Source: Desulfosarcina widdelii (lineage in GTDB: Bacteria; Desulfobacterota; Desulfobacteria; Desulfobacterales; Desulfosarcinaceae). From it: a stretch of DNA of 64,000 bases. The translations under genes and the position numbers were made by a program. Below are positions 17,301 to 55,286 of this stretch, piece by piece (position 1 is the stretch's first letter; every line of letters begins with the position of its first letter). The notes beneath the pieces are model-generated. The model saw only the letters and a program-made list of their open reading frames with translations, ran no database searches and was not told the origin of the DNA. The DNA is taken from contig NZ_AP021875.1 in NCBI RefSeq assembly GCF_009688965.1, forward strand, positions 2,542,001 through 2,606,000, read 5' to 3'.

Positions 17301-19523
17301 GTGATCGAACAAATCAAAAAGCGTGACGGTCGGATTGTTGAATTCGATTCCTCCAAAATCACCGCAGCCATTGCCAAGGCCGGCCAGGCCACAAACGAAT
17401 TCGGGGAGCGGGATGCCAAGAAGCTGACCCTGCGTGTTCTCACCCTGGCCCATGAACTGCGGCTGGGCGCCTCTCCCGAAGTGGAGGAAATCCAGGACAT
17501 CGTGGAGCGGGTCCTGCTGGACTCTCCTTATTACAAAACCGCCAAAGCCTATATCATCTATCGGGAACAGCACGCTCAGATCCGGCGCATCGCCACCGAG
17601 GCCCAGGTGGACCTGGTGGAACACTACATCCGCAAACTGGATTGGAAGATCAAAGAGAACAGCAACATGTGCTATTCCCTCCAGGGACTCAACAATTATA
17701 TCTCCTCGGATGTCACATCGGAGTACTGGCTGAACAAAATCTATCCGCCGGAGATCCGGCGGGCCCATGCCGACGGCGATTTGCACATCCATGACCTCAG
17801 CCTGCTGTCGGTCTACTGCGTGGGCTGGGATCTCACCGATCTGTTGCGCAACGGTTTCAAGGGGGTCGAGGGCAAGGTGGAAAGCGCCCCGCCCAAACAC
17901 CTGCGCTCGGCGCTGGGCCAGATTGTCAATTTTTTCTACACGCTACAGGGGGAAGCGGCCGGGGCCCAGGCCCTGTCCAACTTTGACACTCTGTTGGCAC
18001 CCTTTATCCGTTACGATAAGCTGAGTTACTCGAAGGTCAAGCAGGCGCTTCAGGAATTCGTATTCAACATCAACATCCCCACGCGGGTGGGGTTTCAGAC
18101 CCCGTTCACCAACATCACCATGGACCTGTGCGTACCGGCCACCCTGAAAGACCACCCGGTGATCATCGGCGGCAAGGAGAAAAAGACGACTTACGGTGAA
18201 TTCCAGGTCGAGATGGACCTGTTCAACCGTGCTTTTGCCGAGGTGATGATCGAAGGCGACGCCAAGGGCCGCGTCTTCACCTTCCCCATTCCGACATACA
18301 ACATCACCAAGGACTTCGACTGGGACAACGCCAACCTGGAAACCGTCTGGCAGATGACCGGCAAATACGGCATCCCCTATTTCTCCAATTTCGTCAACTC
18401 GGACATGTCCCCGGAAGACGCCCGCTCAATGTGCTGCCGCCTGCGGCTGGACAACCGCGAACTGCTCAAGCGCGGCGGCGGCCTTTTCGGGGCCAACCCG
18501 CTGACCGGTTCCATCGGCGTGGTGACCATAAATCTTCCGCGCATCGGCCACGTGGCCAAAAACGAATCCGAATTTTTCGGCCTTCTCCAGGACCGGGTGG
18601 ACCTGGCCATCGAAAGCCTGGCCATCAAACGCAAGGTGCTGGAAAAGTTCACCGACAAGAATCTGTATCCCTACTCCAAATTCTACCTTCGCGATATCAA
18701 GAACCGGTCCGGCGTCTACTGGAAGAACCACTTCTCCACCATCGGCATCGTGGGCATGAACGAAGCCTGCCAGAACTTTTTGGATGCGGACATCACTACC
18801 GGCCAGGGCCAGGCCTTTGCCGTGAAGGTCATGGACAAGTTGAGAGCCATGATTGCGGAAATCCAGGACCAGACCGGCGACATCTTCAACCTGGAAGCCA
18901 CCCCGGCCGAAGGCACCTCTTACCGCCTGGCCATGATCGACAAGAAGCGCTACCCGGACATCCTGTGCGCAAATGAAGACGATTTCAAGAAAGGCGCCGT
19001 ACCTTATTACACCAACTCCACCCAGTTGCCGGTAAACCACACCGACGACATCTTCGAAACCCTGATGCTCCAGGACGATCTGCAGACCAAGTACACCGGC
19101 GGCACCGTCCTGCACCTGTTCCTCGGTGAGCAGGTAACGGACATCGAAACGGTCAAGTCCCTGATCCGAAAAGTGTCGGGCAACTATCATCTGCCTTACT
19201 TTACCCTGACGCCGACCTTTTCGGTCTGCCCGACCCACGGCTATCTGAACGGTGAGCAGACCCGCTGCTCCCACTGCGACCGTGAAACGGAAGTGTACTC
19301 GCGGGTGGTGGGATACCTGCGGCCGGTGAAGCAGTGGAACGACGGCAAGCAGGCGGAGTACTGCCGGCGAAAAACCTTCAAGGTAAATCTGGAGGAACCA
19401 GGCGTTGCCGCCGCCGTGTTGATGCAAGCCGAAGAGACCTGCAACCCTGCTGAAGAGAACCCATCGGAAGCTTTGGATCCGGTTTGTAGTGACGATGCTC
19501 TGCAGCAATTGCGTTCGGTCTAG
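17301..19523 (+). CDS. nrdD: Anaerobic (class III) ribonucleoside-triphosphate reductase
   Basis: About 740 residues from GTG 17301 (GGAGAG ribosome site); an ATG at 17232 would add 23 residues before the ATP cone that the family does not have. Residues 3-90 are the ATP-cone allosteric domain ('IKKRDGRIVEFDSSKI'). The catalytic barrel follows. The C-terminus has zinc ligands 'CPTHGY' and 'CSHCDRE' and the glycyl-radical loop 'VVGYLRPVKQWNDGKQAEY', whose Gly carries the radical. The strictly anaerobic enzyme is activated by the radical SAM protein encoded 18 bases downstream. The last about 45 residues are a variable tail. Confidence 0.96.
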   Translation: MIEQIKKRDGRIVEFDSSKITAAIAKAGQATNEFGERDAKKLTLRVLTLAHELRLGASPEVEEIQDIVERVLLDSPYYKTAKAYIIYREQHAQIRRIATEAQVDLVEHYIRKLDWKIKENSNMCYSLQGLNNYISSDVTSEYWLNKIYPPEIRRAHADGDLHIHDLSLLSVYCVGWDLTDLLRNGFKGVEGKVESAPPKHLRSALGQIVNFFYTLQGEAAGAQALSNFDTLLAPFIRYDKLSYSKVKQALQEFVFNINIPTRVGFQTPFTNITMDLCVPATLKDHPVIIGGKEKKTTYGEFQVEMDLFNRAFAEVMIEGDAKGRVFTFPIPTYNITKDFDWDNANLETVWQMTGKYGIPYFSNFVNSDMSPEDARSMCCRLRLDNRELLKRGGGLFGANPLTGSIGVVTINLPRIGHVAKNESEFFGLLQDRVDLAIESLAIKRKVLEKFTDKNLYPYSKFYLRDIKNRSGVYWKNHFSTIGIVGMNEACQNFLDADITTGQGQAFAVKVMDKLRAMIAEIQDQTGDIFNLEATPAEGTSYRLAMIDKKRYPDILCANEDDFKKGAVPYYTNSTQLPVNHTDDIFETLMLQDDLQTKYTGGTVLHLFLGEQVTDIETVKSLIRKVSGNYHLPYFTLTPTFSVCPTHGYLNGEQTRCSHCDRETEVYSRVVGYLRPVKQWNDGKQAEYCRRKTFKVNLEEPGVAAAVLMQAEETCNPAEENPSEALDPVCSDDALQQLRSV

Positions 19524-19541
19524 CCGAGCAGTAATCGTCCC

Positions 19542-20237
19542 ATGCTTATGGCCGGCCTCCAGAAAAACTCGTTTATCGATTACCCCGGTAAAATTAGCTG
19601 CGTTCTCTTTACCACCGGATGTAATTTTGTCTGCCCGTACTGCCACAATGCCGACCTGGCCCGTGGCGAATACCCGCAGCGATTAGGCCTGGATGAAATC
19701 ACCGCCTTTCTACGATCCCGCCGGGGAATGCTCGAGGGAGTGGTCATCACCGGGGGCGAGCCCACCTTGCACGACTGGGTTGTCGACCTGTGCAAGGCCA
19801 TCAAATCCCTGAACTACCCTGTCAAACTGGACACCAACGGCAGCCGCCCCGATGTGCTCGACCGCCTTTTTCAAAAGGAGTTGATCGATTTCGTGGCCAT
19901 GGACATCAAGGCACCACTGGAGGTCTACGGTCCCTTTTGCCGTACCCCCCGCATCCATGAAACGCTGACGGAAAGCATCCAGCTTATCATGGGATCCGCT
20001 CCGGACTATGAATTCAGAACCACCTGTGCCGCACCTTTCGCCACACGCGAAACCATCGAAGCCATCGCCCGAACCATCGAAGGCGCCCGATGCTATGTGC
20101 TGCAAAGGTTCAACCGGCGCGCCGCCTGTCTGGACCCCGAATTCAACCGTCGGCAGGATCCGACCATTTATGAAGATGAGATGAAGCGATTCCAGACCCT
20201 TGCCAAACCCTTTGTCCAGCGTTGCATCATCCGATAG
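19542..20237 (+). CDS. nrdG: Anaerobic ribonucleotide reductase-activating radical SAM protein
   Basis: 231 residues. Radical SAM cluster motif CxxxCxxC in 'TTGCNFVCPYCHNADLA' (residues 27-34), SAM-binding 'VVITGGEPTLH', and an N-terminus 'LQKNSFIDYPGKISCVLFTTG' typical of the NrdG2/PflA-like activases. It generates the glycyl radical on NrdD, encoded immediately upstream. ATG at 19548 is an alternative start. It is longer than E. coli NrdG (154 aa), matching the form common in anaerobes. Confidence 0.92.
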   Translation: MLMAGLQKNSFIDYPGKISCVLFTTGCNFVCPYCHNADLARGEYPQRLGLDEITAFLRSRRGMLEGVVITGGEPTLHDWVVDLCKAIKSLNYPVKLDTNGSRPDVLDRLFQKELIDFVAMDIKAPLEVYGPFCRTPRIHETLTESIQLIMGSAPDYEFRTTCAAPFATRETIEAIARTIEGARCYVLQRFNRRAACLDPEFNRRQDPTIYEDEMKRFQTLAKPFVQRCIIR

Positions 20238-45850: not shown

Positions 45851-47089
45851 TTAAAGCCTGTGAACGATTGGCTTGTCATCTACGTTGATGTCGATGCCGA
45901 CGGTATCGCCGGTTTTAAAGCCAACCCGCCTGAATTCCTGCACCACCGCTTCATGGCGGTCCACATACCAGTAGACGCTCCACAAGGGGTTGCGAACCGT
46001 GTCGATCCCATAAGCGTCGTGGCTGCACAGGTTGATGCGAAACTTGTCCTTGGCGATGAGGGTATCGGCCTCGGAAATAAAAATGTCGATCTGATACAGG
46101 TTGTGGTGCAGGGCTTTGGACAGTTCGGCCTGCAGTTCCGGTGTATCGTCCAGGTAGTGGTTGGCAATCTGATACAGTTCCACCGGGTCCTGAATAGTCA
46201 GTCCCAAAACGGCGTAGCGCTGGTGGCGCAATGCGAATGCCTCCATATCGGCCTGATAGGCCTCGATCGATCGGATGATCCGGGAAATATCCATATCCGC
46301 CGGCGCTGCAGATTCGTTTACCAACTCCTCGCACTGTGAAATGATATCGATGTAAAACGCCTTGTTGTCCATCACGTAAACCGGCCGCTCCCGATAGTTG
46401 CGACGCTTGCGGATCCTGCGGATGCCGTCCAGCACAATGGACCGCCGGCTCTCCTCTTCATCCAGGATTTCGATGTTGGAAATATCCTTGGCCTGCACGA
46501 CATGGATGTCGCCATCGGCCGAAACGATGTATTCGATTTCGCAGCGGAAGCCCAGATGTCCCTGAATGTCCTTGGACAACTGCACCAGCCGTCGGTCATG
46601 GGGAGTGCGGGTAATGTAAGGCTCGCTCTGCACTTTGTGGATGCGGTCCCGGCAGTAGCCGAACTCCCAGTAGCGGTCGATCATCTTGGCCATGACGCTG
46701 GCCCCGTCGATAAACGGCATGACGATCACCCCCATCTGGTCGAGGTCCAGTTCGGGGGCGCGGTTGAAATGCTGCTGTCTGGCGATGCAAAGGTGCCGGC
46801 TGGTTGCGGCAAGCTTGATCATCTTGTTGCGGGCATACCGGATGCCACCCACATCGGCATAGGTTTCCAGCGAATCGAAGGTTCCTCCCTTGAAGCAGCG
46901 TTCTTGCGGATGGGCGCTACGGGCGATCACTTTGAAGCTTTCCCGGTGTTTTTCCAGAAACTTCTCCAGTGCCTCGAAATTCTCGTTTTCAAAATCCTCG
47001 GCAGGCAGATAAATAAAATCGGGAACGGCGAAACCGGCCTGCTTCAACTTCTTCAGCAATTCGGCTTTTTCGGGGAACGCTTGACGCAT
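45851..47089 (-). CDS. PEP-synthase/pyruvate-phosphate-dikinase-like ATP-binding protein
   Basis: 412 residues from ATG 47089 (GGAGAAAAAGG). The region 1-230 resembles the PPDK/PEP synthase nucleotide-binding domain: 'FKVIARSAHPQERCFKGGTF' (the SS/SA-h phosphate loop style), 'GVIVMPFIDGASVMAKM' and 'EIEYIVSADGDIHVVQAKDI'. The phosphohistidine and PEP-binding domains of the full enzymes are absent. The C-terminal 200 residues are unrecognised. It is probably an ATP-grasp kinase or ligase of unknown substrate. Divergent from the TetR gene. Confidence 0.65.
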   Translation of the reverse strand: MRQAFPEKAELLKKLKQAGFAVPDFIYLPAEDFENENFEALEKFLEKHRESFKVIARSAHPQERCFKGGTFDSLETYADVGGIRYARNKMIKLAATSRHLCIARQQHFNRAPELDLDQMGVIVMPFIDGASVMAKMIDRYWEFGYCRDRIHKVQSEPYITRTPHDRRLVQLSKDIQGHLGFRCEIEYIVSADGDIHVVQAKDISNIEILDEEESRRSIVLDGIRRIRKRRNYRERPVYVMDNKAFYIDIISQCEELVNESAAPADMDISRIIRSIEAYQADMEAFALRHQRYAVLGLTIQDPVELYQIANHYLDDTPELQAELSKALHHNLYQIDIFISEADTLIAKDKFRINLCSHDAYGIDTVRNPLWSVYWYVDRHEAVVQEFRRVGFKTGDTVGIDINVDDKPIVHRL

Positions 47090-47231
47090 CCTTTTTCTCC
47101 TGAATTCGATCCGGTCACACTCGGGTGTTCGGGCGATTGAAAAAAACAGTTCATAATAACCGGCTTCCGGTTTCATCGAAATAAAAAAACCGGGAGGGTT
47201 CAATTTTTACCGATACCTTCGGGTTTACCTA

Positions 47232-47284
47232 TTGACATTTTTTGCCGACGTCTTTAATAAGAAAAACCGACTGATCGTTCGGTT
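47232..47284 (+). promoter_or_regulatory. Promoter and palindromic operator of the TetR-SulP operon
   Basis: TTGACA (47232-47237), 17-bp spacer, TAATAA (47255-47260), followed by a 20-bp palindrome AACCGACTGATCGTTCGGTT (47265-47284; outer 6 bases and central GATC symmetric) just past the -10. That is where a TetR repressor would block transcription, 24 bases before its own start codon. Confidence 0.6.
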
Positions 47285-47308
47285 GGTTTTTTATCCGACA
47301 GGTACCAC

Positions 47309-47893
47309 ATGTCCAAAAGAAATGCAATCCTTGCCGCCGCCACGCGGCTCTTTTCCCGCAACGGATTCAAAGGGACGGCCATGGCCGAGTTGTCCGCCGC
47401 TACCGGTGCGGCCACCGGCACCATCTTCCATCATTTTAAGAACAAGGAAGCCCTTTTTCTACAGGTCTTAAAGGACGTGAAGGAAGATATCGTCGACCAG
47501 TTCGACCGCCATCAGAAGACCCGGTCGGTCCGCAACGGCATGGAAATGGTTGAGGCGGCGGTGGCCTTCTATCTTCACCTGGCAGCAACCATGGAACAGC
47601 AATTTCTGATCCTGCACCGTCACTATCCCTATCAGATGGCTGAAACCAGCCCGGTTTGCCGAAACCATCTGGAGGCCATTTACACCTGTCTGTTGGACAT
47701 TTTCGAAGAGGGAATTCAGGCGGGAACGGCCGATGGATCGGTTGCAGTGGACGATCCGCGTAAAACAGCCATGGTTCTGTTTGCCATGGTCGACGGCATC
47801 GTACGGCTCAACACCTACCGCGTCTACGATGCCGGCACCCTTTACGACAGCCTGATGGCCACCTGCCGCAGGCTTCTGACTAAAGGCTTGTAG
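47309..47893 (+). CDS. TetR-family transcriptional regulator
   Basis: 194 residues. N-terminal helix-turn-helix (about 5-50): 'ILAAATRLFSRNGFKGTAMA' with recognition helix 'ATGTIFHHFKNKEALF'. The C-terminal all-helical ligand and dimer domain is not of a recognised subtype. It is the first gene of a tightly packed run with the SulP transporter starting 7 bases later. A 20-bp palindrome lies in its own promoter, suggesting autorepression. The inducer is unknown; a SulP substrate is a reasonable guess. Confidence 0.92.
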   Translation: MSKRNAILAAATRLFSRNGFKGTAMAELSAATGAATGTIFHHFKNKEALFLQVLKDVKEDIVDQFDRHQKTRSVRNGMEMVEAAVAFYLHLAATMEQQFLILHRHYPYQMAETSPVCRNHLEAIYTCLLDIFEEGIQAGTADGSVAVDDPRKTAMVLFAMVDGIVRLNTYRVYDAGTLYDSLMATCRRLLTKGL

Positions 47894-47899
47894 ACCGCC

Positions 47900-50083
47900 A
47901 TGGAGCGCACACCACAGCTGCCCGGCAGTCTCTTTTGGCAAAGGCTGCTGCCCATTTTGGAATCGCTGTCCGGTTACGGTAGACGGCAGTGGAAAAGCGA
48001 CCTGTTTGCCGGTCTGACCGTAGCCCTGGTGCTCATTCCCCAGTCCATGGCCTACGCCCAGTTGGCCGGCCTGCCGGCTTATTACGGCCTGTATGCCGCC
48101 TTTCTGCCGCCAACCATCGCGGCGCTGTTCGGTTCCAGCCGACAGCTGGCCACCGGACCGGTCGCAGTGGTATCTTTGATGACCGCCGTTGCCCTGCAGC
48201 CGCTGGCCGCAGGCGGGAGCCCGGCTTTTATCGGATATGCAGCCCTGCTTTCCATGATGGTGGGGCTGCTCCAGTTCTGCCTGGGCATCCTGCGGCTAGG
48301 GCTGGTGGTCAATTTTTTATCCCATCCAGTGATCAACGGCTTTACCAACGCAGCCGCCATCATCATCGCCACGGGGCAGCTCTCCAAGCTGTTCGGCGTC
48401 GCCGTGGACTCGGGCGCCAATCACCTTCAGACGGTGGTTCAGGTGATGCAAGCCGGCATGAACTACACCCACTGGCCGACGCTGATGATGGCCCTGTTCG
48501 CCTTCGCGGTCATGGCGGGCCTTAAGAGGATTTCCCCGCGCATTCCAGGTGTACTGGTTGCCGTGGCCGCAACCACACTGATCAGCTGGGCCGCCGGTTT
48601 CGAACAGCGGCATACCCAGCCCCTTGCGGCCGTGGCGGATGCCGACCTGCGCAGCCTGATCGTGCACTTCAACGCCGAAACCAACCAGATTGAAAAAATG
48701 GGAGAAGAGCGCACCCAAATCAATGCCCGGCTAACAGAAGCCAAGGCGGACGGCCACCGCCTCATCGCCATCGAAACGCAGCACGATCTGGACCTGTTGA
48801 ACTATCGCATGGCATTGAAAAATAAGATTGTCCGGGACCATCGCCACCGAATCCGGGGCCTGCTTTTCGAACCCGGCAGAGGCGAAGACGGCGCGGTGCG
48901 CCTTTACAGCCAGGGCAACCGCCCTTCGTATCTGGAAAAGATTGATGGAATCTGGCGGTTGGAGGTCGGTCGGCGGCCGCTGGACACCGCCGCCCTGCCT
49001 TTCACCAGCGGAGGAGCCGTTGTCGGTGCCATCCCCACAGGGCTTCCCGAGTTCAGGCTGCCTGCCGTGGACGGCCACAGCGTTCTGGCCCTGATGCCAT
49101 CGGCAGCCATCATCGCCCTGCTGGGATTCATGGAGGCCATCTCCATTGCCAAGGCCATGGCCGCCAAAACCGGCCAACGCATCGACCCCAATCAGGAACT
49201 CATCGGCCAGGGGCTGGCCAATGCCGTTGGATCGCTGTCCCAGAGCTATCCCGTGGCCGGGTCGTTCTCCCGCTCGGCCGTCAACCTCCAGGCCGGCGCC
49301 GTTTCCGGTTTTTCCAGCGCGATCGCCAGCCTGGCCGTGGTAGCGACCCTCTTTTTCTTCACACCGCTGCTCTATCATTTGCCCCAGAGCGTGCTGGCGG
49401 CCATCATCATGATGGCTGTGGCTGGACTGATCAACGCCAGAGGCTTCGTTCAAGCCTGGAGGGCCCAATGGTATGACGGCGCCATCTCCATCGTTACTTT
49501 CGCATGCACCCTGGTCTTCGCCCCACACTTGGACCGCGGCATCCTGGTCGGCGTGGGGCTCTCCTTGAGTGTATTTCTCTACCGCAGCATGCGGCCGAAC
49601 GTGGTGGATCTTTCTCTGGGACTGGACAAGACCCTCCACGATGCCATCACCCACGGTCTGAGAGAGTGCCGCTATATCGACGTGGTGCGTTTCGACGGCC
49701 CGCTTTTTTTCGCCAATGCCAGCTACCTGGAAGACCAGATCCGGCTGCGCCGGAAAATGAAGCGCTCCCTCAAGCACATTATCATTGACGCCGAAGCCAT
49801 TAACGATATCGACGCCTCGGGCCAGGAGTCCCTTTCTCTGGTGGTGAGTCGGGTGAGAAGCGCCGGCATCGACATCTCGCTGTGCAGCGTTCACGAACCG
49901 GTGATGCGGGTGCTGCGAAGAACCCATCTTTTCCATAAAATCGGTGAAGACCATTTTTATCCAACTTTCAAACAAGCAATTCGAGCCATTCACGAGCAGA
50001 CCCATCGGGGGGGAAGCGAAAAGAACTGCCCCCTGACTTCGGTTCGGACCCTTGCATCCACCCGTGAATTCAAAGGAGCCTGA
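47900..50083 (+). CDS. SulP-family anion transporter with STAS domain and large insertion
   Basis: 727 residues, against about 550-600 usually. The N-terminal membrane domain starts 'DLFAGLTVALVLIPQSMAYA', with 'NAAAIIIATGQLSKLFG'. Residues about 250-370 are a hydrophilic insertion ('NQIEKMGEERTQINARLTEA' coiled coil, then a basic segment) just before the conserved 'VVGAIPTGLPEFRLP'. Transport resumes through 'AVGSLSQSYPVAGSFSRSAV'. A STAS domain (about 590-705) contains 'DVVRFDGPLFFANASYLEDQ' and 'IIIDAEAINDIDASGQESL'. SulP proteins carry sulfate, bicarbonate or dicarboxylates; which one is not decidable. Flanked by TetR and signalling genes. Confidence 0.88.
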   Translation: MERTPQLPGSLFWQRLLPILESLSGYGRRQWKSDLFAGLTVALVLIPQSMAYAQLAGLPAYYGLYAAFLPPTIAALFGSSRQLATGPVAVVSLMTAVALQPLAAGGSPAFIGYAALLSMMVGLLQFCLGILRLGLVVNFLSHPVINGFTNAAAIIIATGQLSKLFGVAVDSGANHLQTVVQVMQAGMNYTHWPTLMMALFAFAVMAGLKRISPRIPGVLVAVAATTLISWAAGFEQRHTQPLAAVADADLRSLIVHFNAETNQIEKMGEERTQINARLTEAKADGHRLIAIETQHDLDLLNYRMALKNKIVRDHRHRIRGLLFEPGRGEDGAVRLYSQGNRPSYLEKIDGIWRLEVGRRPLDTAALPFTSGGAVVGAIPTGLPEFRLPAVDGHSVLALMPSAAIIALLGFMEAISIAKAMAAKTGQRIDPNQELIGQGLANAVGSLSQSYPVAGSFSRSAVNLQAGAVSGFSSAIASLAVVATLFFFTPLLYHLPQSVLAAIIMMAVAGLINARGFVQAWRAQWYDGAISIVTFACTLVFAPHLDRGILVGVGLSLSVFLYRSMRPNVVDLSLGLDKTLHDAITHGLRECRYIDVVRFDGPLFFANASYLEDQIRLRRKMKRSLKHIIIDAEAINDIDASGQESLSLVVSRVRSAGIDISLCSVHEPVMRVLRRTHLFHKIGEDHFYPTFKQAIRAIHEQTHRGGSEKNCPLTSVRTLASTREFKGA

Positions 50084-50085
50084 CG

Positions 50086-51303
50086 ATGTCTGTGATTGCC
50101 ATTTTCAGCGGACGCTACTGCAGTGCCGACGCGGTCATCCAGGATGTCATCGACAGTACCGGCCACCGCCTGATCACCGACGACCGGATTGTCCAAAAGG
50201 CCGCCGAGGCTTCGGGCATCCAGGAAAGCAAGATCCGGCGCGCCTTTTCGGCCAGGACCTCGGTTTTCAACACGTTCACCCACGAAAAGGAGTTGTCCAT
50301 CGCCTGCCTGCGCAAGGCGTTGGCCGTCGAACTGGATGGAGGCCTCGCCCTTGTCGATGGGTTCTGCGGCCTTTTGATTCCGCCAACCGTCAGCCACGTG
50401 TTGCGGGTATGCATTATCGCCGAAATGCCGTATCGCCTGGAACAGGCCGAAACCATCGGGAAGCTGACCCGCAAAGAGGCCCTGAAGCAAATCCATGCCG
50501 CCGATGCCGACAGCAGCGCCTGGACTGACGCCCTGCTTTCCGTCAAGGACCCATGGGAAGCCAGCCTCTACGACATGGTCATTCCCATGAACCGCATGGA
50601 TGTGGCCCGGGCGGGCGCACTGATCGAGGAAAACCTGATCAAGGATGCCGTTCGCCGCACCAGTGCCTCTTCTCAGGCCCAGAAAGATTTCCTCCTCGCG
50701 GCCGCCGTCGAAATGGAATTGTGCCGGGCAGGCCACGACGTCTCGGTCACTGCAGAAAACGGAGCCGTGGTGCTGACCATCAACAAGCAGGTACTGATGT
50801 TGGCCCGTCTGGAGGAGGAACTCAAGGCCATCGCCGGAACCCTTCCCGGGGTGGAATCGGTATCCACCAGAGTGGGTAAAAATTTTCACGAGGCAACCAT
50901 CTATCGCAAACATAATTTCGAAGTCCCTTCCAAGGTGCTGCTGGTGGATGACGAGCGCGAGTTCGTCCAGACCCTGTCCGAACGGCTCCAGCTGAGGGAC
51001 ATGGGCTCGGCGGTGGCCTACGACGGCGAATCCGCCCTGACCCTGGTCAAGGAGGATGAACCCGAAGTGATGATTATCGACCTGAAAATGCCGGGCATCG
51101 ACGGGATGGAGATTCTCAGGCAGGTGAAAGCCACCCGGCCGGAGATCGAAGTCATCGTCCTCACCGGCCACGGCAGCGAAAAAGACCGCCAGCAGTGCAT
51201 GCAGATGGGCGCCTTCGCCTATCTGCAAAAACCGGTGGACATCGACGAATTGAGCGCCACCCTGAAAGAAGCCCATGAAAAGATTCGGCAGGTCAAAGCG
51301 TGA
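50086..51303 (+). CDS. Cytidylate-kinase-like/receiver domain fusion
   Basis: 405 residues. Residues 1-200 match the cytidylate-kinase-like (PF13189-type) fold ('GHRLITDDRIVQKAAEASGI', 'AFSARTSVFNTFTHEKELSI' , 'LVDGFCGLLIPPTVSHVLRV', 'RKEALKQIHAADADSSAWTD'), but the P-loop is degenerate ('SGRYCSADAV'). A small alpha/beta module (about 200-280, with 'GVESVSTRVG') follows. Residues 282-400 are an intact receiver: 'VLLVDDEREF', D332 in 'VMIIDLKMPG', 'VLTGHG' and 'YLQKPVDIDEL'. It starts 2 bases after the SulP stop. The N-terminus is possibly a nucleotide sensor rather than a kinase. Confidence 0.82.
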   Translation: MSVIAIFSGRYCSADAVIQDVIDSTGHRLITDDRIVQKAAEASGIQESKIRRAFSARTSVFNTFTHEKELSIACLRKALAVELDGGLALVDGFCGLLIPPTVSHVLRVCIIAEMPYRLEQAETIGKLTRKEALKQIHAADADSSAWTDALLSVKDPWEASLYDMVIPMNRMDVARAGALIEENLIKDAVRRTSASSQAQKDFLLAAAVEMELCRAGHDVSVTAENGAVVLTINKQVLMLARLEEELKAIAGTLPGVESVSTRVGKNFHEATIYRKHNFEVPSKVLLVDDEREFVQTLSERLQLRDMGSAVAYDGESALTLVKEDEPEVMIIDLKMPGIDGMEILRQVKATRPEIEVIVLTGHGSEKDRQQCMQMGAFAYLQKPVDIDELSATLKEAHEKIRQVKA

Positions 51304-51328
51304 CGGATTCGTATAAACACAGGACCTT

Positions 51329-53110
51329 ATGATGAGCATCCTGTCCAAACTCAAGCCGCGTTTCTGGGACCACCTGGATTCGGCCTCCGGACCGGAAAAT
51401 CGGCAGTTCAGCTTCCGGCGCAAGTGGCTGATGATCGTATCGTTTACCACGGTGGTGACGCTTACGCCGCTTTTTGTCATGGCCCTGATGGACTACCGGC
51501 TTACCCGCCAGGCGTTTGAAAATGAGGCGAAAATGGCCGTGTCCCGTGCGGTCTCCAACACCTGGCGCAGCATTTCCTTTCTCCTTTCCCAGCGCAGGGC
51601 AGCCCTGGTTTTCATCGCGCGGGACAATGGCCTGGACGCGCTGACCAAACCCGGACGGTTGGAAATCCTCCTGGATCGGCTGCAGCAAATCATGGGCGGA
51701 TTTGTCGATTTGGATGTGGTGGACGCAGACCGCAATATTCGGGCCTGTGCCGGATTACATGTCGGGGCCGGCAGCCGTCTGGAGCCGGGCAAATGCTTCG
51801 ATCATGCGGTTGCCAACGGATTTTTCATCAGCGATGTAACCAAAAATTCCGGACAGAACCATCAACTGGTCATCGCCATTCGACAGCGTCTAAGCGACGG
51901 CGGATTTTTTGTGTTGCGGGCAACCCTGGATGCCGATCTCTTCGACGTTCCGGTGTCCCAACTGGCCATGGACGGGCGCGACGATGTCTTTATCATGAAC
52001 CGGCAGGGCGTGCTCCAGACACCGTCCCGACATTACGGACCGCGCTTTGAGAAAATTCCCCTGCCCATACCCGAAGAGATCGACGGAACCCGCGTTTACC
52101 AAACCGTCGAACGGGACGGGCGCCCCGTGCTGGTGGGCATGGCCCCCATTGCCGACAGCCCCTTTGTACTGCTGATGATCCGCCAGCAGTCGGATATCAT
52201 GGACCTTTGGTTCAAACCGCGAATGCACCTGATCGGATTCCTGCTGTTCAGTGTTGTCCTGATTCTGGCCTCCATCGTGGGCGTAGCCACCTACCTGGTC
52301 AACCGCATCCACGCCGCCGACCAGCGCCGGGTCCATGCCCTGCACCAGGTGGAATACGCCAACAAGCTGGCTTCCATCGGACGATTGGCCTCCGGGGTGG
52401 CCCACGAAGTCAACAATCCCCTGGCCATCATCAACCAGAAAGCCGGTTTGATCAAAGACCTGCTCACCATCAGGGGCGAGCAGACCGGCAACGAAAAACT
52501 GATCGGACTGGTGGAGGCCGTGCTTGAATCGGTAAAGCGCTGCGGGACCATCACGCGCCGGCTGCTGGATTTTTCGCGGCACATGGAGGCATCCGTGGAA
52601 ACGGTGGACATCGAGGCCGTCATCCGCCAGATTCTGGCGTTCCTGGAGAAAGAGGCCGAACGGCGCAACATCGCCATATCCGTATCGACCCGGGAAAGAA
52701 TTCCGGCCTTCGAAAGCGATCTGGGAAACCTCCAACAGATCTTTCTCAATCTGATCAACAACGCCTTTGCCGCCATGCAAAACGGTGGACGACTGGATAT
52801 CTTCATCCGACGCCATGAAAAGGACCACATCTCTGTGGCGGTGGCCGACACGGGCCACGGCATCCCCGAAGCGGATTTGAAGCGGGTCTTCGAACCTTTC
52901 TTTTCCACCCGGGAGGGCCACGCGGGAACCGGTCTGGGCCTGTCCGTCACCTACGGCCTGGTATCCGAAATGGGAGGCACAATCGCCGTCAAAAGCAAGC
53001 CCAACCGGGGCACCTGCTTCACCGTGACCCTGCCCTTGACACCGCTTTTGTCGTCATCGGCCAAAAACGGCGATGACAACGGCCCATTACCGAAAGAAGA
53101 AAAACCATGA
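51329..53110 (+). CDS. Membrane sensor histidine kinase
   Basis: 593 residues. First membrane helix about 33-55, an extracytoplasmic sensor of about 240 residues (Cache-like, with 'ISDVTKNSGQNHQLVIAIRQ'), second helix about 299-322, then a coiled coil and HisKA dimerisation box 'LASGVAHEVNNPLAIINQKA' with His near 359. The ATPase domain follows, with N box 'QIFLNLINNAFAAM', 'VADTGHGIPEADLKRVFEPF' and 'GTGLGLSVTYGLVSEMGG'. All kinase motifs are intact. Likely partners are the two receivers encoded on either side. The stop overlaps the next ATG (ATGA). Confidence 0.93.
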   Translation: MMSILSKLKPRFWDHLDSASGPENRQFSFRRKWLMIVSFTTVVTLTPLFVMALMDYRLTRQAFENEAKMAVSRAVSNTWRSISFLLSQRRAALVFIARDNGLDALTKPGRLEILLDRLQQIMGGFVDLDVVDADRNIRACAGLHVGAGSRLEPGKCFDHAVANGFFISDVTKNSGQNHQLVIAIRQRLSDGGFFVLRATLDADLFDVPVSQLAMDGRDDVFIMNRQGVLQTPSRHYGPRFEKIPLPIPEEIDGTRVYQTVERDGRPVLVGMAPIADSPFVLLMIRQQSDIMDLWFKPRMHLIGFLLFSVVLILASIVGVATYLVNRIHAADQRRVHALHQVEYANKLASIGRLASGVAHEVNNPLAIINQKAGLIKDLLTIRGEQTGNEKLIGLVEAVLESVKRCGTITRRLLDFSRHMEASVETVDIEAVIRQILAFLEKEAERRNIAISVSTRERIPAFESDLGNLQQIFLNLINNAFAAMQNGGRLDIFIRRHEKDHISVAVADTGHGIPEADLKRVFEPFFSTREGHAGTGLGLSVTYGLVSEMGGTIAVKSKPNRGTCFTVTLPLTPLLSSSAKNGDDNGPLPKEEKP

Positions 53111-53757
53111 CCGACGAATCCCGCTTGCTGGCTGTCGATGGGGTGCGCTTTTTCGGGGAAATGTCCGCCTCGGTTTCCCACGAAATCAAAAACGTGCTGG
53201 CCATCATCAAGGAAAACGCCGGTCTGCTCCAGGACATGCTGGCCATGAACGCCAAGGGCATTCCCCTGGACCCGGAACGGTTGACTCGGCTGGCACAGTC
53301 CATCGATCGCCAAGTCGCCCGAGGAGACGGTGTTGTCCGGAACATGAACCGGTTTGCCCACAGCGCCGACCACGCTTCGGAAACCGTGGATGTGCATGAG
53401 ACGATCGGGTTCGTCATCAACCTGGCAGCCCGCCTCATCGTCATGAAAGGACGCCCGCCGCAATTCGAGGCGGCGACGGCCCCGTTGACGACGGTCACCA
53501 ACCGGTTTTTTTTAGAGCGTCTGATATGGGCCTGCCTGTGTCGAGCCATAGAAGCATGCGCCTCTGAAGGGACGCTCTCGATAGTTGCGGAGAAAACCGA
53601 TGCTGGCGTCCGAATTCGTTTTCAGGGTGTGGCAGAAGATTTTTTTACCGCCGGTGCGCCATTTCCGTCGCCGGGGGAAGCGACGGTCTGCCGGATGCTC
53701 GGCGCCCGATTGAGCGCCGATGAAAACGCAAAAGAAATTGTTATTGTTTTAAGTTAA
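53107..53757 (+). CDS. Histidine-kinase-like protein lacking ATP-binding motifs
   Basis: 216 residues. A DHp-type helical hairpin with phospho-acceptor box 'MSASVSHEIKNVLAIIKEN' (H25), then helices to about 150. The C-terminal third corresponds to a kinase ATPase domain in position but has no recognisable G1/G2 or DxGxG glycine boxes ('RFQGVAEDFFTAGAPFPSPG'). It may be a phosphotransfer or pseudo-kinase protein accepting phosphate from the adjacent kinase. Translationally coupled to it by a 4-base overlap. Confidence 0.75.
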   Translation: MTDESRLLAVDGVRFFGEMSASVSHEIKNVLAIIKENAGLLQDMLAMNAKGIPLDPERLTRLAQSIDRQVARGDGVVRNMNRFAHSADHASETVDVHETIGFVINLAARLIVMKGRPPQFEAATAPLTTVTNRFFLERLIWACLCRAIEACASEGTLSIVAEKTDAGVRIRFQGVAEDFFTAGAPFPSPGEATVCRMLGARLSADENAKEIVIVLS

Positions 53758-53832
53758 CCGCCCTAACCGCCCCGCCGCATATCCGGTTCTAAAAGACGGG
53801 CTTGCACCAGGGCAATTCGAAAGGAGTACCCC

Positions 53833-54261
53833 ATGACGGAAAGAGTATTGCTGGTCGACGACGAAACGGAATTTCTGGAGATCATGGCCGAACGCATGCG
53901 TGCCCGGGACATGGAGGTCACCACATCCACTTCGGCCACCGAAGCGCTGTCGCTGATCGCCACCGAATCCTACGATGCCGTGATCATGGATTTCATGATG
54001 CCAGAAATGGACGGCATCCAGGCCCTGAAGGCCATCAAGGAGAAAAAGCCGGAAATGCAGATCATTCTACTCACCGGCCATGCGACGGTCCAAAAAGGCG
54101 TCGAGGCCATGAAAGCCGGCGCCATGGATTTTGTGGAAAAGCCGGCGGACCTGGACGCCCTGTCGGAAAAAATCAAAAAGGCCCACCATAAAAAGGCGGT
54201 CATCGTTGGGAAGCAGAGTCAGGCAAAAGTGATTGAAATGTTAAGAAAATACGGAATGTAA
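53833..54261 (+). CDS. Response regulator (receiver plus short basic tail)
   Basis: 142 residues. Receiver: 'VLLVDDETEF' (D9, D10), D53 in 'VIMDFMMPEMDG', 'ILLTGHATV' Thr, 'DFVEKPADLDALSEKIKKAH' Lys. The tail 'KKAVIVGKQSQAKVIEMLRK' has no known output fold. It closely resembles the receiver of the upstream fusion protein, so the two are probably duplicates fed by the same kinase. Ribosome site GAAAGGAG. Last gene of the TetR-SulP operon. Confidence 0.9.
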   Translation: MTERVLLVDDETEFLEIMAERMRARDMEVTTSTSATEALSLIATESYDAVIMDFMMPEMDGIQALKAIKEKKPEMQIILLTGHATVQKGVEAMKAGAMDFVEKPADLDALSEKIKKAHHKKAVIVGKQSQAKVIEMLRKYGM

Positions 54262-54358: not shown

Positions 54359-55162
54359 TTATCGATCCCGATCCGCCGTTCCGGCGGCCAGCACTTTGGC
54401 CTTCATCAGGTCGAAGACCGCTGCCCCGGACACAGCAGCCTCGGATTCTCCGGCAGCTACGGCTTTGAAACGGTCGAAGCGCTCTTTGTCCCGGCTGCTG
54501 ACCGGCCCTTCCAAACAGGTCAAAGAGTCGTGCACCAGGCTGTAGATCACCAGGGGCCCGAGGGTCATCTCGCCTCCCGGCTTTTCAGAGACACGCCCGT
54601 AGATATCGTGGTGTTTTATCGCGAAAGCCTTGGGTGCCGGCACCATCCCCAGCAACTCGGCCAGCAGCATCAGGCTCTCCTGAACGCCCTCGGCATACTC
54701 GTTTTCCAGGGATGCGGACCCATCGGCGGCAATGGCGGCGATATCGGACTCTGAAAAACCGAGATCCAGTTCGGCGATACAGATCTTTTGAATCTCTTTC
54801 AGGGAAGCCTCTTTTTTAGACACCACCACATCCTTGTCGTTCAGAATTTTAATGGCGTTGCGGATGCTGACCATCTCCTTGACGGTGGGACTTTTCCTCA
54901 TCACCACATCTTGCACCGTGGTGTCGTAAATGGTCAGGTCGTTGTCCAGCACCAGGATGCGCGTTTTCTCCGATTCGGCGTTTTCCAGATACAATTCCAG
55001 ATCGCGTTCCTTTTCCCGATGCCATGGAAAAAAAGCCATCAATTTGGCGAGCAGCGCCTTGTCGATGCGTTTGCCGCTGTCCACCGGACCGATCATGGCA
55101 AGAATGGATTGGGTCAGACGATCGATCTCGATTTTGCGAAGCAGGTTTTCCTTGAATGACAT
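54359..55162 (-). CDS. Hypothetical protein, predominantly helical
   Basis: 267 residues from ATG 55162 (AAGGAG site); the earlier ATG at 55201 lies in repeat D2. No family recognised. Features: 'MSFKENLLRKIEIDRLTQSI' amphipathic start, 'ILVLDNDLTIYDTTVQDVVM' in a beta/alpha middle part, 'VVVSKKEASLKEIQKICIAE', and a C-terminal region 'LGPLVIYSLVHDSLTCLEGP'. It has no signal peptide or membrane segment, so it is probably cytoplasmic. Stands alone, with repeat D2 just upstream. Confidence 0.72.
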   Translation of the reverse strand: MSFKENLLRKIEIDRLTQSILAMIGPVDSGKRIDKALLAKLMAFFPWHREKERDLELYLENAESEKTRILVLDNDLTIYDTTVQDVVMRKSPTVKEMVSIRNAIKILNDKDVVVSKKEASLKEIQKICIAELDLGFSESDIAAIAADGSASLENEYAEGVQESLMLLAELLGMVPAPKAFAIKHHDIYGRVSEKPGGEMTLGPLVIYSLVHDSLTCLEGPVSSRDKERFDRFKAVAAGESEAAVSGAAVFDLMKAKVLAAGTADRDR

Positions 55163-55177
55163 CCGGTTTCTCCTTTT

Positions 55178-55286
55178 GTATGCGTTCACAGGGTACCGCA
55201 TCTGCTTTGTTCCCGGGCACTTGAAGGTTGACCGAACCGTCTGCGTGCCCGGCGCCTCAAATCTGCGGTTCCCTGTAAACGCTTAC
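55178..55286. repeat. Dispersed palindromic repeat, family D (D2)
   Basis: 109 bp, inverted relative to D1 (37261). Ends 'GTATGCGTTCACAGGGTACC' and 'GGTTCCCTGTAAACGCTTAC' pair. It shares the 'TTTGTTCCCGGGCAC' and 'TGCCCGGCGCCTC' blocks with D1. It overlaps the 5' leader of the hypothetical gene 54359-55162, ending 16 bases before its start. Confidence 0.8.

Follow-up and report, generated by a model that had tools for sequence, protein, structure and literature searches.

The closest described relatives of the system reported here are gene clusters of Desulfobacteraceae in which sulP is accompanied by two-component genes and by a TetR repressor with a 16-bp palindrome. They are presented as widespread in the main text of PMC11887813, along with a sister DASS cluster, the kinases sharing Cache domains; the response regulators are called WalR type there, control at the promoter is proposed, and proteomics is stated to have found SulP abundant and constitutive in D. 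variabilis. PMC5840216 places SulP, DASS (SLC13) and TSUP (TauE-type) among the sulfate transporter families of sulfate reducers and relates, from Tarpgaard 2017, that the sulfate level alters transcripts of one SulP and of some DASS genes in D. autotrophicum, the transcript of another SulP being unchanged. Here a cluster of this kind was analyzed in Desulfosarcina widdelii, in a stretch of 64,000 nucleotides (assembly GCF_009688965.1, contig NZ_AP021875.1, positions 2,542,001 to 2,606,000 of the forward strand), referred to as the window, with coordinates counted from its first letter. The gene cluster as such is already published (PMC11887813, as its main text describes it), with an explanation different from the one favored below. 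Comparison of the window with its relatives suggests a signalling set without a DNA-binding part that stands beside whichever sulfate-type transporter is present, as would be the case if the cell tuned the transporter protein directly.

Six genes on the forward strand (47309-54261) encode TetR, SulP, a cytidylate-kinase-like protein fused to a receiver (named CK-REC here), a sensor kinase, a kinase-dead DHp protein and a receiver. The features of the operon are as follows.

47232..47258, forward strand: promoter-like sequence, TTGACA (47232-47237) and TTTAAT (47253-47258), read by eye
47265..47284, no strand assigned: palindromic operator AACCGACTGATCGTTCGGTT, the presumed TetR-binding site, from sequence and conservation
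47309..47893, forward strand: TetR-family regulator, 194 residues (PF00440, 1.1e-15)
47900..50083, forward strand: SulP/SLC26 anion transporter, 727 residues, with STAS at 595-693 and an insertion at about 238-370 (PF00916, PF01740)
48611..49009, forward strand: the SulP insertion (residues about 238-370), modelled as a helical hairpin and small sheet, probably periplasmic
50086..51303, forward strand: CK-REC, with a cytidylate-kinase-like part at 3-168, a BON-like part at about 193-263 and a receiver at 284-393 with D332 (Pfam and model)
51329..53110, forward strand: membrane sensor histidine kinase with a Cache-like periplasmic part and H359 (HisKA 1.2e-07, HATPase_c 5.3e-29)
53107..53757, forward strand: kinase-dead DHp protein, a putative phosphotransferase, with H25 (HisKA 4.6e-06)
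53833..54261, forward strand: receiver of 142 residues with a short tail and D53 (PF00072, 1.5e-30)

The intergenic gaps are 6, 2, 25, -4 and 75; an earlier sequence-only reading of the window had given 7 for the first and was right on the other four. That reading had taken the six genes for one unit behind a single promoter with a TetR-type palindrome, and had named scattering of the genes in relatives as the observation that would speak against it. When relatives were surveyed the genes were found together in most loci, which with the tight same-strand spacing supports one unit, and the palindrome was confirmed and found in the same place in relatives. The residues H359, H25, D332 and D53 are likewise as it had named them, so that the anatomy of a phosphorelay (kinase H359, DHp H25, receivers D332 and D53) is in place.

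Neighbourhoods were mapped in genomes of the order and, for the 251 relatives on contigs of named genomes, around the best 80, with gene calls made as mechanical open frames; the closest named relatives of the window's cytidylate-kinase-like domain come from Desulfosarcina; loci overlap between sources, L227 being the same record region as L168. With the cytidylate-kinase-like domain as query and a threshold of 1e-15, matches were obtained in 128 of the 194 genomes of the order, and at least 118 CK-REC places (open frame of at least 399 residues) were found in 110 of the 194, a count that excludes broken or short frames (G146, G097) and a weak tail including one 437-residue frame (G010). The distinct CK-REC proteins numbered 138, loci with two being counted by the first only, and 85 had enough flank for their neighbours to be scored. 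SulP lies upstream in 64 of these 85 loci, an operon-type kinase on either side in 79, a DHp protein on either side in 71 and one or more receivers downstream in 78. The genes usually run TetR, SulP, CK-REC, kinase, a receiver of about 120 residues, DHp protein and a receiver of about 142 residues. The shorter receiver, counted in 43 of the 85 loci, is missing from the window and from the Desulfosarcina-like loci L135-L140 where the sequence covers that part. A second cluster in the D. widdelii genome, at approximately 1,781-1,788 kb, has the same parts in another order with no TetR recognized. A SulP and CK-REC like those of Desulfobacterota were also seen on a contig labelled Nitrospira japonica (L203), which is possibly mis-binned.

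The partner of this module varies in family. Among 76 distinct CK-REC loci with 7-kb flanks, SulP was present in 60 (a locus with both SulP and SLC13 being counted as SulP), SLC13 without SulP in 12 and TauE in one; examples at SulP-less loci matched Na_sulph_symp at 7.7e-43 (SLC13 type) and TauE at 4.3e-36. A phylum-wide search gave matches in 41 of 297 genomes at 1e-25, and 20 loci selected from those genomes comprised 14 with SulP, two with SLC13 only, two with TauE only and two with no transporter recognized, one of which ends at a contig edge. The upstream DNA-binding regulator varies as well, and may be TetR, a PAS-sigma54 protein (L112 by Pfam, others by reading) or a histidine kinase with an NtrC-sized regulator (L238, L241 and L242, by size only). 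A constant module with a changing transporter and a changing promoter regulator is as expected if the module acts on the transporter, and suggests that it follows the transporter rather than the promoter regulator. The presence of one module beside SulP, SLC13 or TauE also bears out the proposal, made from the window alone, of a transport-linked signalling system.

Further association is seen in three SulPs (L090, L091, L093) that end in a receiver behind STAS. These fused receivers have median identities of 58, 55 and 53% to CK-REC receivers, as against 37-40% to the other operon receivers. Across the 194 genomes, insertion-type SulP and CK-REC occur together in 98, CK-REC only in 12, SulP only in five and neither in 79 (a broken SulP hit, G142:C76, being excluded), and 90 of 110 insertion-type SulPs lie within 8 kb of a CK-REC. 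That a general signalling module merely rides near transporters in operons without acting on them would be compatible with gene neighbourhood taken by itself, but this is considered very unlikely in view of the 98 genomes with both against 17 with one, the receivers fused to SulP and the pairing retained in the reordered second cluster. Post-translational control of the transporter, as first suggested from the window, is the best reading of the constant module, the varied transporters and the SulP-receiver fusions taken together.

The published model differs in its output: the kinase would govern transporter synthesis by way of WalR-type regulators that bind DNA, and TetR would be a second repressor (main text of PMC11887813). 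In its favor, PMC11887813 describes clusters whose named parts are the same, with Cache kinases and a TetR palindrome; further support comes from the HK plus NtrC-sized regulator or PAS-sigma54 protein that adjoins the module in other clades, and from sulfate-dependent transcription of some transporters as related in PMC5840216. However, in this operon nothing longer than a short tail follows the receiver domain (CK-REC ends at residue 405, the last receiver at 142) and no receiver has a DNA-binding Pfam match, which upholds the sequence-only reading on the lack of a DNA-binding output. The same holds in relatives, where 180 of the 187 receiver genes downstream of CK-REC encode 200 residues or fewer; two of the seven longer ones were inspected, L180 being an OmpR-type regulator and L088 an over-called frame. 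PMC11887813 itself calls SulP constitutively formed, and an abundant, constitutive SulP fits control after synthesis. Promoter control by the receivers is accordingly regarded as unlikely for this operon. The same reading had called the two receivers similar, which is loose, as the CK-REC type and the last-gene type differ in conserved residues. The last receiver has the same length in many relatives; its 24-residue tail (54187-54258) belongs to a set in which many of 25 inspected out of 48 resemble KKMILVEKxxEEKIKxIIxxKGW, and this tail is a possible docking peptide.

The candidate effector is CK-REC, which had been described as a degenerate kinase fused to a receiver. The fusion stands, with Pfam matches to PF13189 (3.5e-13, above the cut-off) and PF00072 (4.2e-29), but the kinase part is nucleotide-kinase-like and not a histidine kinase. 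All 64 CK-REC orthologues match both PF13189 and PF00072 at E 0.1 (best PF13189 match 4.7e-22), a profile search of PDB identified 3hdt and 3fdi as relatives of the cytidylate-kinase-like domain, and D332 is invariant across the 64 aligned sequences. A Walker A motif (GxxxxGK[ST]) was found in none of 137 CK-REC N-termini (first 30 residues as called), and judged by this motif the domain does not appear to be an active nucleoside monophosphate kinase. Stand-alone cytidylate-kinase-like proteins in some other loci keep a GSYS(K/R)GKE loop, which CK-REC is without, and two more such proteins lacking a receiver lie beside the second SulP cluster (L021, 14392-15381, forward strand, and 18524-19615, reverse strand).

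CK-REC is modelled with a predicted local distance difference test score (pLDDT) of 91. Its middle part, with helices at 193-214 and 239-251 and strands at 220-224, 227-232 and 258-263 in the series helix, strand, strand, helix, strand, has the BON order of elements; Pfam BON was matched in 6 of 64 members at E 0.1 only, and at 0.0074 by the isolated middle piece. Foldseek and VIA-align returned only receivers among the matches listed, and PADLOC matches also fall on the receiver, one extending back to residue 242. When CK-REC was compared within the genome (150 of 194 candidates scored), the 13 best matches covering its receiver, self excluded, comprised five in the two SulP clusters, six at 7.06-7.08 Mb and two elsewhere, and one of the five is the other CK-REC, which matches by its cytidylate-kinase-like part too. 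The region at 7,054-7,084 kb (L023 and L024) contains two SLC13 transporters, several Cache kinases and single receivers, and is perhaps the DASS cluster outlined in PMC11887813. A literature search returned no paper on cytidylate kinase-like proteins with a response regulator and sulfate, and none on a cytidylate kinase-receiver domain fusion with a transporter.

The sensor kinase belongs to a family with the motifs of histidine kinases, its relatives having the H-box and G1 box in 118 of 118, the G2 pattern in 108 and the N-box pattern in 95. The Cache match is marginal in the window kinase (0.11) and clear in two sister-cluster kinases; the label as used here comes from an iterated profile seeded with the window kinase and a paralogue and marks relatives of that sensor, in which the Cache domain is putative. 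The DHp protein, described previously as kinase-like without a recognizable ATPase, matched that description: at E 0.01, 49 of the 53 family members match HisKA and not one matches HATPase, and no HATPase was listed for the window protein at E 1. All 101 members compared have H25, N29 and D43, and 100 have H85, while of the ATP-binding motifs the N-box pattern was found in one of 101, G2 in none and a G1-like string in four, in stretches judged not to be a G1 box. Five Pfam families matched the 53 members at E 0.01, those other than HisKA in one member each, and the models that we take Pfam to hold for ChpT and Spo0B were not among them. With a conserved histidine and its ATP-binding motifs lost, the protein has the predicted anatomy of a kinase-derived histidine phosphotransferase.

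Its source looks to be an operon-type kinase. The DHp family profile gives operon kinases a median score of 79 bits, compared with 15.6 bits for the 33 other kinases encoded at these loci; one of the 33, at 284.7 bits, is probably a DHp protein in an over-long frame. The genome's two best matches to the window protein belong to the two SulP clusters. For the DHp family the consensus docking helix is HEIKNVLAIINENAGLLED, nearly the same as that of the kinases, HEINNPLAIINEKAGLIKD, and both proteins should therefore meet the same receivers.

These features could also be accommodated with no relay at all, the kinase phosphorylating CK-REC and the last receiver directly and the DHp protein serving only as a phosphatase or competitor that resets them, an arrangement compatible with the transporter as target. 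The DHp family retains the H-(E/D)-x-x-N motif in 101 of 101 members, and the last residue of this motif is tied to phosphatase activity in HisKA kinases. The lineage of the window moreover lacks the short receiver found in 43 of the 85 loci, so that a full His-Asp-His-Asp chain is not obligatory. Conversely, H25 is itself invariant, which is more than a pure phosphatase would need, and this alternative is given real weight as a possibility that nonetheless falls short of probable.

The transporter itself matches PF00916 at 3e-101 in two stretches and TIGR00815 above its cut-off, with AtSULTR4;1 and prestin as PDB relatives, and carries its own STAS domain as had been claimed (PF01740, 3.1e-16). 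Sulfate is the presumed substrate, judging from the physiology of the host and from the partner families SLC13 and TauE. A search of the genome with the SulP model identified two SulP proteins, each beside a CK-REC gene. SLC26 structures align to approximately residue 237 and resume at approximately 371, which places the insertion between the two aligned halves; in the model it follows transmembrane helix 7 (TM7, by our own count) and precedes TM8. The TM7-TM8 side of the SLC26 fold is the outer side. The insertion block (residues 241-370) has a pLDDT of 75-88 within a SulP model that is weak outside the insertion and STAS (mean 61), and because the model is weak overall the membrane side assigned rests mainly on alignment and known topology, by which the insertion is probably periplasmic. 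An additional transmembrane helix within it was rejected, as no hydrophobic stretch occurs in 53 sequences (largest 19-residue mean 1.01).

It had been suggested that the relay might act on this insertion. This was abandoned, since a probably periplasmic insertion would be out of reach of cytoplasmic receivers and thus no direct relay target, and insertion-bearing SulPs also exist without the module. For the same reason, and with Firmicutes placed in SulP group Ci by PMC5840216, the insertion was rejected as a mark of the module alone. SulP might instead be the sensor, its periplasmic insertion touching the Cache part of the kinase and reporting flux, with the output of the receivers lying elsewhere. 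The insertion and the kinase sensor are predicted to share one side of the membrane, and CbrA, as described in the sources available, is a precedent for a transporter-kinase sensor. Insertion-type SulPs without the module, the membership of the SLC13 and TauE partners in other families and the low conservation of the insertion, whose mean commonest-residue frequency (0.51, as against 0.73-0.85) is the lowest in SulP, all argue against this arrangement, which is judged improbable.

A number of observations weigh against a relay directed at the transporter. Twenty of the 110 insertion-type SulPs do not lie within 8 kb of a CK-REC; of the 12 examined, L215-L217 and L219-L222 have no cytidylate-kinase-like gene in the available stretch, L218 has one without a receiver, and contig ends truncate several of the rest. 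From the other side, insertion-type SulP is lacking within 8 kb at 27 of the 118 CK-REC places, and no transporter was recognized at 3 of the 76 CK-REC loci. The SulP-receiver fusions show association, not direction, and related genomes are not independent samples, so that a nominal Fisher value for the co-occurrence overstates the case. The sulfate-dependent transcripts related in PMC5840216 mean that transcription matters too. Finally, the window DHp protein scores 38.0, 37.5 (second cluster), 36.5 and 35.5 bits (its own kinase) against genome kinases; because these window scores are flat, its descent from an operon kinase rests on the family profile.

Expression of the unit appears to be set locally. 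The end of the palindrome and the TetR start codon are 24 bp apart, and the 18-bp core of the palindrome, with up to two mismatches, has one site in the 7.30-Mb genome on both strands (0 matches for a reversed control); as the core occurs at only one genome site, just before TetR, TetR looks like a local regulator of this single unit. An exact copy of the core is present at 14 of 246 loci, some of them one place counted twice; in 13 of the 14, as in the window, it stops 23-27 bp short of TetR, and in the remaining locus (L191) TetR was not called. A comparable promoter-like arrangement lies upstream of the operator in the relatives inspected, and the promoter of the operon, with a spacer of 15, was absent from the output of a sigma-70 consensus scan. 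TetR is inconstant in relatives, being upstream of CK-REC in 51 of the 85 well-flanked loci, and as none was found upstream in the other 34 it was ruled out as the relay target. At L148, L154, L182, L183 and L190 TetR stands immediately before CK-REC and SulP is missing; the same operator is kept at L148 and L154, and a short kinase (465-483 residues) is encoded at L148, L154, L182 and L190. A 450-residue protein on the reverse strand (45851-47203) is divergent upstream of the operon, its promoter region adjoining the TetR operator; it had no match in Pfam, NCBIfam or PADLOC and has relatives in 36 of 162 compared loci (window counted; some loci overlap). A convergent 280-residue protein (54359-55201, reverse strand) of no Pfam family follows the operon, with relatives in 15 of the 162 loci (window counted).

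The operon and its conservation are solid, and from them we infer a relay and its target. On balance we consider it somewhat probable that a phosphorelay acts on the transporter, and its wiring may run as follows. The membrane kinase, whose catalytic motifs are present, would sense a signal outside or in the membrane through its Cache-type part, most likely sulfate, and autophosphorylate at H359. Phosphoryl groups would then pass among the kinase, the receivers and H25 of the DHp protein, for which the anatomy is observed, with the DHp protein as phosphotransferase or phosphate drain. The end point would be CK-REC, perhaps also the 142-residue receiver, and CK-REC, phosphorylated or not, may engage the cytoplasmic STAS side and alter the uptake rate, as operon pairing and SulP-receiver fusions suggest. 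Expression of the whole unit would be set separately, here by binding of TetR to its one local operator. More speculatively, CK-REC may use its kinase-like domain to read a nucleotide as well, for example an adenylate reporting sulfate activation. The specific version in which CK-REC, as a dead kinase, docks on the STAS side of SulP (and by analogy on SLC13 and TauE) and gates it according to sulfate outside and adenosine 5'-phosphosulfate or adenosine monophosphate inside is offered tentatively. In marine sediments carbon turnover is dominated by a process whose first step, costly in energy, is the entry of sulfate, and how that entry is controlled is poorly understood. A relay targeting a transporter instead of DNA would be unusual, and if the specific version just given is true, one interchangeable control module would govern the entry step of sulfate respiration across a phylum.

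Compared with known systems, the operon is most like the sulP and DASS clusters of Desulfobacteraceae in PMC11887813, sharing TetR with a palindromic operator, SulP, Cache kinases and two-component genes, a likeness judged by description and not against the published genes themselves. It differs from the WalR-type DNA-binding output published there in that no operon receiver has a DNA-binding match, and the main text of that paper, with supplements outside the comparison, mentions no kinase-like/receiver fusion, kinase-dead DHp protein or SulP-fused receiver. The transporter resembles SulP group Ci of PMC5840216 (about 710 residues with an insertion of about 90), and from length we infer it to be of that group; the group Ci insertion is said there to add a transmembrane helix, whereas the one here has no hydrophobic stretch and models as a soluble hairpin. 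The main text of PMC5840216 contains neither 'histidine kinase' nor 'response regulator'.

Kinase-derived phosphotransferases like that predicted for the DHp protein are ChpT, Spo0B and PhyT, whose histidine is carried by a DHp-type helical hairpin ahead of a degenerate catalytic-type domain. The DHp protein differs in that HisKA is the one Pfam family it matches recurrently and in that its profile matches ordinary sensor kinases in the PDB, 3a0r being the best (6.8e-10). In CbrA (SLC5-STAC-HK), as far as the available descriptions go, a transporter is tied to a two-component kinase, as here, but in one fused chain, whereas here the genes are separate, the partners are SulP, SLC13 or TauE and no receiver is DNA-binding. 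In PMC12802240, where the target is not a transporter and the start of the abstract mentions no kinase-like partner domain, a single-domain response regulator acts on a phosphoglycosyl transferase, and thus provides a likeness for a receiver that targets an enzyme, not DNA.

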